Positions 9,274 to 56,363 of a DNA stretch of 64,000 nt are shown here, one piece after another (position 1 is the first letter of the stretch; every line of letters begins with the position of its first letter). Source of the DNA: Rhodanobacter sp. C06 (GTDB lineage Bacteria; Pseudomonadota; Gammaproteobacteria; Xanthomonadales; Rhodanobacteraceae). The notes beneath the pieces were generated by a model, which worked only from the letters and a program-made list of their open reading frames with translations, was not told the origin of the DNA and searched no databases. The stretch covers positions 62,001 to 126,000 of the forward strand of contig NZ_MUNP01000046.1 in NCBI RefSeq assembly GCF_002001105.1, in the 5' to 3' direction. Both the position numbers and the translations under genes were made by a program.

Positions 9274-10728
9274 TCAGGCTGATGGCGCGTTTACCCGCGC
9301 GCGGCGCAGCTGGCTGTGCCGGTAGCCGTAGCCGAAGTAGATCGCCAGCCCAATCAGGGTCCAGATGCTCATCAGCAGCCATTGGTACCAGTTCTCCCAG
9401 TACAGCAGGCCGAGGCAGCTGGCCACGCCCAGCGTGCAGATCACCGGCGCCCACGGCACGCGGAAGGTGCGCGGCAGGTCGGGGCGGGTGTAGCGCAGGA
9501 TGAAAACGCCGGCGCAGACCGCGACGAAGGCGATCAGCGTACCCATCGAGACGAGATCGCCGAGGATGTCCAGTGGGAACACCGCAGCCAGCGCCGCGAT
9601 GCCGATGCCGGTGATCACGGTATTGATGTGCGGCGTCTTGTAGCGTGGGTGGATCTTCGAGAACACCGGCGGCAGCAGGCCGTCGTTGCCCATGATCATG
9701 AAGATGCGCGGCTGCGCGATGATCATCACCAGGATGACCGAGGACAGGCCGATCAGCGCGCCGATCTCCACCACCCAGCGCAACCAGTTCAGTTGCGGGT
9801 GCGCCTTCACCGCGGTGACCACCGGCTCGCTAGTACCCAACTGGTCGAACGGCAGCAGGCCGGTGATCACGGCCGCCATGCCGATATACAGCACGGTGCA
9901 CACCGCCAGCGAGACGAGAGTGCTGATCGGCAGGTCGCGCTGCGGGTTCTTCGCTTCCTGCGCCGCGGTGGAGGTGGCCTCGAAGCCGATGTAGGCGAAG
10001 AACACCAGGGTCGAGGCGCGCATGATGCCCGCCCAGCCGTATTTCTCCGGCCCCTGCTGCGGCGGGATGAACGGATGCCACAGGTCCGGGTTCACGTACT
10101 GCCAGCCGGCCACGATCACGATCACGATCAGGCCGACCTTGAGCAGCACCATCGCCAGGTTCGCGCCGCTGGATTCGCGGATGCCCACGTAGCACAGCCA
10201 GGTCAGCGCCAGGGTGATCGCGACCGCCGGCAGGTTGAACAGCGCGCCGGTGGCGACGAGGTGGCCACCCTGGTAAGCCAGCGGCGCATTGGTCAGCACC
10301 GCGGGCAGGTGCAGCCCCATGTTGTCGAGCAGGCTGGTGAAGTAGCCGGTCCAGCTCACCGCCACCGCCGAGGCGGAAACGCCGTATTCCAGCACCATGT
10401 TCCAGCCGATGAACCAGGCCACCAGTTCGCCCAGCGTGGCGTAGGCGTAGGAATACGAGCTGCCCGACATCGGTATGAGCGTGGCGAACTCGGCGTAGCA
10501 CAACGCGGTGAAGCTGCAGCAGATCGCCGCGATGATGAATGACAGGATGATCGCCGGCCCCGCATGCTCGGCCGCCGCCTGGCCAGTGATCACGAAGATG
10601 CCGCCGCCGATCACCGCGCCGATGCCCAGTGCGGTCAGGCCCCAGGGGCCGAGCGTGCGCTGCAGCGCGATGCCATGAGCGGCGTCGGCGCCGAATTCGG
10701 TCTTGCGGGCGAGCAGTTGTTTGAGCAT
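9274..10728 (-). CDS. APC-family amino-acid permease (first of two)
   Basis: A 484-aa polytopic membrane protein of the amino acid-polyamine-organocation family, with about 12 hydrophobic segments. The first helix has the substrate-site signature GIGAVIGGGIFVITG, and the sixth region reads VFFAYIGFEATSTAAQE, as in cationic/branched amino-acid permeases of the YfnA/CAT type. The start MLKQLLARKTEF at 10728 is preferred because upstream in-frame sequence lies inside the repeat element at 10740-11014. Substrate specificity cannot be read from sequence. It is in tandem with a paralogue at 11085-12569. Confidence 0.88.
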   Translation of the reverse strand: MLKQLLARKTEFGADAAHGIALQRTLGPWGLTALGIGAVIGGGIFVITGQAAAEHAGPAIILSFIIAAICCSFTALCYAEFATLIPMSGSSYSYAYATLGELVAWFIGWNMVLEYGVSASAVAVSWTGYFTSLLDNMGLHLPAVLTNAPLAYQGGHLVATGALFNLPAVAITLALTWLCYVGIRESSGANLAMVLLKVGLIVIVIVAGWQYVNPDLWHPFIPPQQGPEKYGWAGIMRASTLVFFAYIGFEATSTAAQEAKNPQRDLPISTLVSLAVCTVLYIGMAAVITGLLPFDQLGTSEPVVTAVKAHPQLNWLRWVVEIGALIGLSSVILVMIIAQPRIFMIMGNDGLLPPVFSKIHPRYKTPHINTVITGIGIAALAAVFPLDILGDLVSMGTLIAFVAVCAGVFILRYTRPDLPRTFRVPWAPVICTLGVASCLGLLYWENWYQWLLMSIWTLIGLAIYFGYGYRHSQLRRARVNAPSA

Positions 10729-10739
10729 GGGGCCTAGAA

Positions 10740-11014
10740 CCTGTTCGATGTCTCCGCATGGCCCGCGCCGGGAGCTGTTTGCGCGCAGACCAAGGAAGAA
10801 CGAAGGAGTGGACGTCCGTCCACGACTGAGTGATGACGCAGGGATGCGGGCAAACAGACCCGGCCCCGGAATTGATGGGTGCGGGGGTTGCCTTGCCGTG
10901 GCAGCCATGCGACAGCGCGCGGCTTGACCTGCGAGCCAGGCGGGCGCTGCGCCACGCGCCACCACCTGACGGCCACGGCAACGCAACACGGGCTATGTGG
11001 AGACATCGAACAGG
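10740..11014 (+). repeat. 275-bp palindromic-ended repeat element, copy 1
   Basis: This element lies between the two permease genes and has a near-identical partner in the opposite orientation at 35225-35507. The ends form long inverted arms (left from 10740 CCTGTTCGATG, right ending CATCGAACAGG at 11014). Internal pairings visible are 10775-10782 with 10850-10857 (CTGTTTGC / GCAAACAG), 10808-10814 with 10817-10823 (GTGGACG / CGTCCAC), and 10887-10902 with 10972-10987 (one mismatch). It has no credible protein frame. It resembles a non-autonomous mobile unit (MITE-like) or a dispersed structured RNA. Confidence 0.85.
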
Positions 11015-11084
11015 CTCTCGGAACATGAAACCGGCACGACGTTGTCGTGCCGGCAGTATGGCGAATGGCTTGTATGCGCGCGGA

Positions 11085-12569
11085 TCAGTCCGCCTCGGTA
11101 CCGCAGGCCAAGTGGCTCCTGCGGTAGCCGTACAGGTAATACACCACCAGGCCGATCGCGCCCCACACGAAGAACGTGATCTTCGCTTCCTTCGAGAGGT
11201 TGAGGAACAGCAGCAGGCAGCCGATCACCGCCAACGGGCAGATCAGCCACGGCAGCGGGGTGCGGAACGGACGCGGGCGCTCGGGCTGGGTGCGGCGCAG
11301 GATCAGCACGCCAATCGCCACCATGATGAAGGCGAACAGCGTGCCCGAGTTGGTGATGTCGGCGAGGATGCCCACCGGGAACAGCGCGCCGAACAGCGAA
11401 ACGAAGGTGCCGGTAATCAGCGTGATGATGTGCGGCGTATGGAAGCGCGGATGGATCTTGGCCAGCTTGCTGGGCAGCAGGCCGTCGCGCGACATGGTGA
11501 AAAAGATGCGCGTCTGGCCGTAGGTCATCGTCAGGATCACCGACGGCAGCGCGATGCTGGCGGCGAAGGCGATGAAGGCGGCGGTATTGGTATGGCCTAG
11601 AAGGCGCACCACGTGGGCCAGCGCCTCCTTGCTGCAGACCAGTGCCTCCGAGCCCTGGCAGGCCGCGGCAAACGCCGGCGTGCCCGGCTCCAGTGCCACC
11701 CCGTTCGGGCCCAGCATGGGCTGCGCGCCTATCGAGCCCACCGCTGCGTAGCTCACCAGCAGGTAATAGATGGTGCAGACGCCGAGCGAAGCGATCAGCG
11801 CGATAGGGATGTTGCGGTTCGGGTTCTTGGTTTCCTCGGCTGCCGTGGAGATGGCATCGAAGCCGATGTAGGCGAACACGATGGAAGCCGCCGCGCCCAG
11901 CACGCCGATGCCGCCCATCGGGCTGCCCCAGCCGTTCGGCACGAACGGTGTGAAGTTCTGGTCCTTCACCGCCGGCAAGGCGACGATGATGAAGGCGGTG
12001 AGGGCGATGATCTTGATCAGCACCAGCACGGTGTTGACCTTGGCCGACTTCGAGGTGCCGATCACCAGCAGGCCGGTGACCGCCAGGCCGATCAGGCAGG
12101 CCAGCAGGTTGAAGCTGCCGCCATCCATCGGACCCACCTGCAGGAAGTGTGGCAAACCGAATCCGGCATGGCTGAGCAGACCGTTGACGTAACCGGCCCA
12201 GCCCACGCAGACGGTGCTGGCGGCGATGGTGTATTCCAGCACCAGCGCCCAGCCGACGATCCAGGCAACACCTTCGCCGAGCACGCCGTACGTATAGGTG
12301 TAGGCCGAACCGGCCACCGGCACCATCGCGGCGAGTTCCGCGTAGGCCAAGGCGGCGAACGCGCACACCACTGCGGCAATCACGAACGCGATCATCATGC
12401 CGGGGCCGGCCTTCTGGCCCGCTTCGGCGGTGAGCACGAAGATGCCGGTGCCGATGATCGCGCCGATGCCGAGCATGGTGAGCTGGAAGGCACCGAGCTG
12501 GCGGGTGAGGCTTTTCTTTTCCGCCGTGGCGATGATCTGGTCGATCGGCTTGATGCGCTTGAACAGCAT
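11085..12569 (-). CDS. APC-family amino-acid permease (second of two)
   Basis: A 494-aa integral membrane transporter, about 12 helices, of the same family as the gene at 9274-10728. It shares the first-helix motif GIGAIIGTGIFVLTA and the VFAYIGFDAISTAAEETKNP block. A longer extracytoplasmic loop (about residues 315-350) carries two cysteines (ACQGSEALVCSKE). The ATG at 12569 has a GGAG ribosome site. In-frame upstream sequence would extend into the region divergent to the NUDIX gene and is rejected. Likely a general or cationic amino-acid carrier; the substrate is not determinable. Confidence 0.88.
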   Translation of the reverse strand: MLFKRIKPIDQIIATAEKKSLTRQLGAFQLTMLGIGAIIGTGIFVLTAEAGQKAGPGMMIAFVIAAVVCAFAALAYAELAAMVPVAGSAYTYTYGVLGEGVAWIVGWALVLEYTIAASTVCVGWAGYVNGLLSHAGFGLPHFLQVGPMDGGSFNLLACLIGLAVTGLLVIGTSKSAKVNTVLVLIKIIALTAFIIVALPAVKDQNFTPFVPNGWGSPMGGIGVLGAAASIVFAYIGFDAISTAAEETKNPNRNIPIALIASLGVCTIYYLLVSYAAVGSIGAQPMLGPNGVALEPGTPAFAAACQGSEALVCSKEALAHVVRLLGHTNTAAFIAFAASIALPSVILTMTYGQTRIFFTMSRDGLLPSKLAKIHPRFHTPHIITLITGTFVSLFGALFPVGILADITNSGTLFAFIMVAIGVLILRRTQPERPRPFRTPLPWLICPLAVIGCLLLFLNLSKEAKITFFVWGAIGLVVYYLYGYRRSHLACGTEAD

Positions 12570-35224: not shown

Positions 35225-35507
35225 AGAGTCTGCTCAATGTCTCCACATAGCCCGCGTTGCCTTGCCGTGGCCGCCAGGTGGGAGTGCGCGGCGCAGCGCC
35301 TGCCTGGCTGGCAGGTCAAGCCGCGCGCTGCCGCATGGCTGCCACGGCAAGGTAACCCCCGCACCCATCAATTCCGGGGCCGGGTCCGTTTGCCCGCATC
35401 CCTGCGTCATCACTCAGTCGTGGACGGACGTCCACTCCTTCGTTCTTCCTTGGTCTGCGCGCAAACAGCTCCCGGCGCGGGCCATGCGGAGGCATTGAGC
35501 AGACTCT
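35225..35507 (-). repeat. 283-bp palindromic-ended repeat element, copy 2
   Basis: This is the inverted partner of 10740-11014, over 90% identical by eye through the core. The outer arms are AGAGTCTGCTCAATG (35225-35239) and its complement ending at 35507. It fills the gap between pcm and yqaA almost exactly. Read on the minus strand it has the same orientation as copy 1. The hairpin GTGGACG/CGTCCAC and the other internal pairings are conserved. Confidence 0.88.
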
Positions 35508-56038: not shown

Positions 56039-56045
56039 GTCCACA

Positions 56046-56187
<142 letters not shown>

Positions 56188-56363
56188 AAAGGGGTCGCGT
56201 GGTCTGCGCGAGCCGGCGATTTTACGTGCTGGCCGGGGCCGTGACAAGCGCGGGCGGACCGGCTTGTCATGCCGGGCTGGTCGGCCAACTGGCTTCCCGG
56301 TCAGTCGCAGTCAGGTGTCGACCGCGGTATCCGGGTTCGGCGATGGGGCTGATGCCTGATCCA

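Follow-up and report, generated by a model that had tools for sequence, protein, structure and literature searches.

The element at positions 10737-11017 of the window, the 64,000-nucleotide stretch of Rhodanobacter sp. C06 DNA that was analysed, is almost certainly a non-autonomous DNA transposon (MITE), and its IS1031-type ends would place it in the IS5 family. Its copies pair with themselves from end to end in three arms, and the covariation between paired positions is real, very strong and spans the entire element. The account that we consider probable as a whole is that this is an IS5-type MITE in which all 266-300 bp form a conserved three-armed fold, kept because copies that pair throughout were tolerated during the spread of the family.

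Copy 1 was bounded by direct reading (281 bp, GAA...CTC) and extended further out than the arms described in the initial annotation of this DNA. Its parts, the second copy in the window and the adjoining genes were as follows.

10737..11017, plus strand: copy 1, a structured miniature element, assigned from its ends, its repeats in the same genome and its orthologue in genome G010
10737..10766, plus strand: 5' arm of P1, the left terminal inverted repeat, IS5-type GARCCTGTTC...
10767..10864, plus strand: P2 arm, whose internal loops are conserved and rich in purines
10808..10823, plus strand: apical hairpin of P2, GTGGACGTCCGTCCAC, within the most conserved part
10865..10886, plus strand: junction hairpin between P2 and P3, present in copy 1 in its long form
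10887..10987, plus strand: P3 arm, with many compensated transversions and with majority wobbles that read U.G on the minus strand
10988..11017, plus strand: 3' arm of P1, the right terminal inverted repeat
35226..35506, minus strand: copy 2, likewise 281 bp long
9274..10728, minus strand: amino acid permease gene next to copy 1, with 8 bp separating its presumed start codon from the left end of that copy
11085..12566, minus strand: another amino acid permease gene, with a presumed start codon, located upstream of copy 1

Copy 1 was placed between the two permease genes and had an orthologue of 97% identity in G010. Copy 2 was flanked by a PCMT methyltransferase gene and by a gene that matched the VTT domain (DedA-type) weakly (26.6 bits, below the Pfam cut-off of 33.9). 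The apical hairpin GTGGACGTCCGTCCAC was found, within two mismatches, only in the two window copies. At least 32 element matches were found in the same genome with 40 of 80 candidates scored, and on inspection these were 22-23 near-full copies and three end fragments. One of the contigs, C44 (182,054 bp; L354-L356), appeared to be a near-perfect inverted duplication about its centre. Agreement with the reverse complement was 1991 of 2000 bases at the ends and 1027 of 1028 at the centre, the only stretches compared. This looks like an assembly artefact or a hairpin-ended replicon, and consequently the element copies L019 and L020 are probably a single copy.

The wider family was collected with nhmmer. 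Of 461 hits, 227 partial ones and 30 that were duplicates, at contig edges or N-containing were removed, leaving 204 full-length sequences. Their lengths differed in steps that were not multiples of 3, indicating that the element is non-coding. Fourteen of these proved to be weak reverse-strand hits to copies that the set already contained; with them removed, 190 copies remained, on which the main counts rest.

The ends and flanks were those of a mobile element. The left end read GAG in 156 of 190 copies and the right end CTC in 159. Identical 3-bp flanks bordered 56 of the 190, compared with 20.6 when flanks were shuffled, while identity over 4 bp occurred in none; before cleaning, the 204 sequences included 63 with identical flanks, TNA in every case. 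No identical 3-bp flank was present in the other 134 copies, and a clean TNA duplication was absent both at copy 1 (CTA/TCG) and at copy 2. The copy 2 site was empty and continuous in 13 of 14 related genomes of the genus, the fourteenth having a partial match; five of the junctions were read. The second of the two sites tested, that of a copy designated L010 (C17:46993-47252 of the same genome), was empty in G010. The L010 copy apparently lies at the first codons of a gene, and the empty site in G010 reads straight through. An element with a long insert between its halves was not found among the fetched loci.

For the IS1031 subgroup of the IS5 family, the literature describes an insertion sequence, ISLrh, with TNA as target, two overlapping frameshifted ORFs and an end of 17 bp, GAACCTGT... 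(PMC12016507); another IS5 element has a TTA duplication (PMC2516522). This subgroup and its derived MITEs share with our element the GAR-CCTGT... ends and the 3-bp TNA duplication (PMC12016507). In relatives of the host, the IS5-family elements L162 (GAGCCTGTTCAAAGTCTC) and L314 shared the ends of our element and were flanked by TNA. The stretch GAGCCTGTTCAAAGTCT was common to L162, several copies of the element and one end of L314, there with a single difference. L162 matched PF13340, PF01609, PF13586 and NF033580 (NCBIfam IS5_3) and contained two ORFs, as ISLrh does (PMC12016507). The element differs from IS1031-type insertion sequences in having no coding capacity and in its branched interior fold, which was absent from the end-matched insertion sequence that was read.

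At least three classes of element ends were distinguished, GAGCCTG.. (141 of 190), GGGCCTGTT.. (16 copies, many continuing with ARCACTATT) and GGGCGTGTC.. (2 copies), together with intermediate types. IS5-type elements with resembling ends occurred in relatives: L162 and L314, L174 and L346, and L161, the last with ends only about 520 bp apart and a DUF4096 match below the cut-off, so that it may be truncated. The resemblance of three terminal-arm classes to three classes of IS5-type ends suggests that terminal covariation partly reflects recognition by the transposase. Covariation in P1 is to that extent ordinary, because both ends must suit one transposase.

The source of the transposase was less apparent. 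The draft genome that carries the window had no match to PF01609, PF13586 or PF13340. The end-matched insertion sequence was rare among carriers of the element: the transposase of the best one, L162, was found in 5 of 147 genomes of the bacterial family at E <= 1e-20, compared with 72 of the same 147 for the element. Proteins matching PF01609 were present in 14 of 24 genomes tried, their ends mostly unread or different; G010 had four such hits, of which L337, whose ends were read, has other ends. An end-matched mobiliser was thus not found where copies had moved, and the draft assembly may hide a transposase.

The 72 genomes with element matches covered 18 of 26 genera (E <= 0.001, some matches marginal). 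In a smaller sample, 26 of 37 genomes of the family were matched and one of 24 others, that one at E 8e-4. A scan with the core pattern named at least Rhodanobacter, Dyella, Fulvimonas, Luteimonas and a Rhodanobacteraceae bacterium. G010 alone had 21 element matches. Neither the distant BLAST search of plasmids and phages nor a search of IMG/VR viral contigs with the P2 core pattern (0 hits) returned the element. Published descriptions were sought in the titles and abstract openings of the open-licence literature, and none was found there; the element was classed as an apparently new variant of IS5-type MITE.

The initial annotation drew attention to the ends of the two window copies. The arms CCTGTTCGATG/CATCGAACAGG in copy 1 and TCTGCTCAATG/CATTGAGCAGA in copy 2 indeed paired perfectly within each copy and differed at three positions between copies. 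The two inner differences in copy 1, CCGCATGG against the complement of CCACATAG, were both G.T on the plus strand, and those in copy 2 were also both G.T in the orientation of the element, accompanied by one C.A. The covariance alignment proposed there was run on 37 gap-free copies, no more than 90% alike, taken from 77 with the modal length pattern. The consensus fold and pair list were derived from the 204-row alignment with both strands folded, and the conclusions were the same after cleaning to 190; weak reverse-strand rows numbered one in an earlier set of 126 rows and none in the set of 37.

The consensus was a closed three-way structure: the ends form P1, P2 has a conserved core rich in purines, and a tiny junction hairpin lies between it and P3. 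Among the 37 divergent copies, 95.8% of cells in the 100 pairs were paired, compared with 31-39% when the partners were slid. Both sides had changed in 62 of the 100 pairs (34.3 in shuffles), the covariation score was 0.355 (0.118 in shuffles), and none of 500 shuffles reached the observed value in any of five covariation measures. Many changes were transversion swaps of both partners, as in columns 144/228 (CG 15, GC 13, UA 8). The RNA folding z-score of the element was -9.8 for the plus strand and -9.4 for the minus strand, and none of 200 shuffles was equally stable. The junction hairpin was found by pattern in its short form, CCC-NNN-GGG, in 153 of 190 copies, and 134 of the 153 had a GNA triloop, 64 on the plus strand and 70 on the minus strand; these hairpins thus have a stable loop on either the plus or the minus strand, neither being preferred.

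Fold-wide covariation bears out the compensated pairing noted in the initial reading. Selection on a single strand, the plus strand of copy 1, was not supported. In P1, G.U and A.C on the plus strand were about equally frequent, the outcome named beforehand as refuting such selection: 126 and 119 parsimony changes and 13 and 12 columns in the 190 copies, 22 and 18 cells in the 37 divergent copies, and 112 and 127 in the earlier 126 rows (all parsimony change counts given here are approximate, since the repeats from which the tree was built recombine). Of the G.U pairs first noticed, two in number, one was the commonest state of its column (GT in 21 of 37). In the 190 copies P2 leaned weakly to the plus strand (117 versus 92 changes, 14 versus 13 columns) and P3 strongly to the minus strand (70 versus 210 changes, 4 versus 29 columns). 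Five P3 columns that were mostly C.A or A.C on the plus strand in the 37 copies read U.G on the minus strand. Within P3, the majority wobble columns (A1 columns 159/213, 162/210, 165/207 and 169/203) recur every 3-4 pairs. Unpaired P3 positions showed a similar skew (43 G>A versus 12 C>T, despite more C than G), so a strand-biased substitution process is possible for the P3 lean. The unpaired positions of P2 were 42% A and 41% G on the plus strand, and such purine-rich loops would suit a plus-strand RNA. The strand evidence was therefore self-contradictory, with the P2 loops pointing to the plus strand, P3 to the minus strand and P1 to neither.

These observations bear on whether the element is a mobile RNA gene, one strand of which is a structured RNA acting in trans or within host messages, with the MITE ends serving only for its spread. 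We regard this as unlikely. An RNA gene would account for 1) the fold-wide covariation, the conserved internal loops and the variable helix extensions, 2) the 83% purine content of the unpaired P2 positions on the plus strand, and 3) the five U.G majority columns of P3 and the excess of changes toward the minus strand. It is opposed by the disagreement of the strand hints between the three arms, by the same G>A skew at P3 positions that do not pair, by genes fused to the element with no orientation bias, by the decay of young copies regardless of pairing and by the Rfam search, which gave no match to the element at the gathering score; the best weak match, BTH_s1, reached 19.9 bits against a cut-off of 74.

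Recent change in the element was examined in five young orthologous pairs (identity >= 0.94). Of 15 pairs designated 'orthologous', at least four (L006/L081, L098/L126, L111/L125 and L114/L131) were not clearly the same insertion by their junctions and were not counted. The five pairs had accumulated 35 one-sided and no compensated changes; 34 could be classed, as 9 G.U, 9 A.C and 16 other mismatches. Young resident copies thus decay as if neutral and show no evidence of selection where they reside. Taken with the pairing of the family as a whole, this decay indicates that pairing was kept during spread and not visibly at young resident sites. Selection in situ at resident loci, as the sole cause of the pairing, was rejected because young orthologues decay.

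Copying of one arm onto the other, by template switching or conversion within the palindrome, would make the arms match in the absence of selection and had been offered as the main alternative. By parsimony, changes from one Watson-Crick pair to another were indeed about as frequent as one-sided changes in P1 (324 versus 312) and common in P3 (262 versus 391). However, close copies differed almost solely on one side, and the compensated share climbed gradually with divergence, being 0.07 for an identity of 0.90 and 0.59 for one of 0.70, although slow copying would likewise yield a rising share. P2 is equally palindromic and yet was not homogenised (116 doubles versus 372 one-sided changes). 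Moreover, non-pairing columns persist across the family, namely the P2 internal loops, one majority G.T column in P1 and, in P3, the five columns with a C.A or A.C majority. Simple copying would erase such columns and is therefore an unlikely main cause; slow copying could still have operated, and as an explanation of the matching arms we consider copying highly improbable.

The position of the element relative to genes was determined with a home-made GC3 ORF caller for 119 of the 190 copies (127 of 204 before cleaning). The 119 copies had 127 gene ends directed into them, 34 at distance 0 and 9 at -1, and a stop codon was fused to the boundary in 42 copies. The corresponding values before cleaning were 39 and 9 of 140 gene ends, and 47 of 127 copies. 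The fused genes showed no bias of orientation (23 versus 20). Neighbouring genes were co-directional in 30 copies on the plus and 45 on the minus strand, convergent in 26 and divergent in 18. The stop codons TAA and TGA are themselves TNA, so that target duplication restores the stop and the gene is left intact. Where NTA precedes the element, its first G completes TAG, and the stop is again kept. Insertion at stop codons can thus be explained simply, by the TNA duplication regenerating the stop.

A sequence of events consistent with these data can be proposed for the tolerated IS5-type MITE. An IS5-type transposase acting in trans would cut at the terminal repeats, which are the P1 stem, and insert the element at TNA. 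Insertion at a stop codon would leave the gene intact, and the element, whichever way round, would then occupy the 3' region of a transcript; the transcript of either strand may fold into a compact stem that screens neighbouring messages. Copies fully paired on both strands may then have been best tolerated while spreading, which is the least certain step; if so, pairing and not the letters would be conserved, mostly with no strand preference. The letters of P1 would drift with the transposase by which they are recognised. The absence of a G.U/A.C bias in P1 and of an orientation bias of fused genes was counted for this strand-neutral account, and the strand skew of P3, which it does not predict, counts against it. 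Tolerance is thus the presumed reason for conservation of the interior fold.

The fold might instead be used as DNA, a single-stranded hairpin or cruciform that joins the ends or is itself the substrate of transposition. The GNA triloop is very stable in DNA, and the junction hairpins have it on one strand or the other in nearly all short forms (134 of 153). DNA folding, which was run for the minus strand alone, gave a z-score of -7.9, the two strands of P1 behaved symmetrically, and the family remained paired while young resident copies decayed. On the other hand, UNCG and GNA loops are stable in RNA too, and IS5-type transposition is not known to require single strands. Use of the fold as DNA is accordingly doubtful, and a little more so than an RNA gene. 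A related proposal is that P2 and P3 constitute a functional mobile module, either an RNA acting in trans or a device for DNA synapsis. Survival across the family would then have come from swapping the closing-stem ends that a transposase recognises, a single core being carried by three or more IS5 end types, and from harmless landing at stop codons. Neither the module nor this mode of survival seems likely to us.

Several known repeats resemble the element in part. The target of ERIC is TA, and membership in ERIC/RU-1 failed on that target and on its size of 127 bp. The YPAL (RU-2) repeat of enterobacteria is, like the element, a non-coding MITE at intergenic sites. Retron msr-msd regions have an adjacent reverse transcriptase and a branching G in a1, and their a1 and a2 covary, resembling the arms of the element; this likeness was the sole ground for considering a retron, which was set aside. 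The further comparisons were made by description (PMC2229807, PMC3733652). ERIC/RU-1 is also a non-coding MITE of intergenic sites, is transcribed together with adjacent genes and influences mRNA stability; at 127 bp it differs from the three-armed element of 266-300 bp, which has TNA targets and belongs to another bacterial family (PMC2229807). For NEMIS/Correia, MITEs of Neisseria, an RNA hairpin has been proposed to act on neighbouring messages via RNase III; their sizes (about 107 and 155 bp) and host set them apart (PMC2229807). The CIR repeats of Caulobacter also have a phylogenetically conserved RNA model, which is two-armed; they are about 110 bp, with two arms and a linker, no pairing of the ends, a GANTC motif and unclear mobility (PMC2229807). 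REP/REPIN sequences with RAYT are palindromic, dispersed and extragenic like the element, with units of 20-40 bp tagged GTAG or CGTC (PMC3733652) compared with element ends of GAG...CTC; membership was rejected on size and ends. By analogy, the element may work like ERIC, NEMIS and similar palindromic MITEs.

Bacterial MITEs are usually seen as decayed transposon ends, whereas here a whole branched fold has been kept through hundreds of compensatory changes across genera, and the terminal arms resemble different IS5-type ends. With this family, the benefit that a transposon draws from an ability to fold becomes open to test, be it tolerance by neighbours, an RNA product or transposition itself, and the family constitutes a large natural covariation data set.

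Two minor observations were made. Some copies contained extra hairpins of about 30-45 nt (for example GAGTCCATGGATGGACTC) at similar insertion points, as extensions of the helices; they were located in the P2 arm in L009, L014, L021 and L022 and in the P3 arm in L006, L007 and L042. Elsewhere in the window, positions 56041-56201 on the minus strand matched the sRNA sX4 (RF02223) with 71.3 bits, just above the gathering score of 70, and this match overlaps a tRNA call at 56101-56187.
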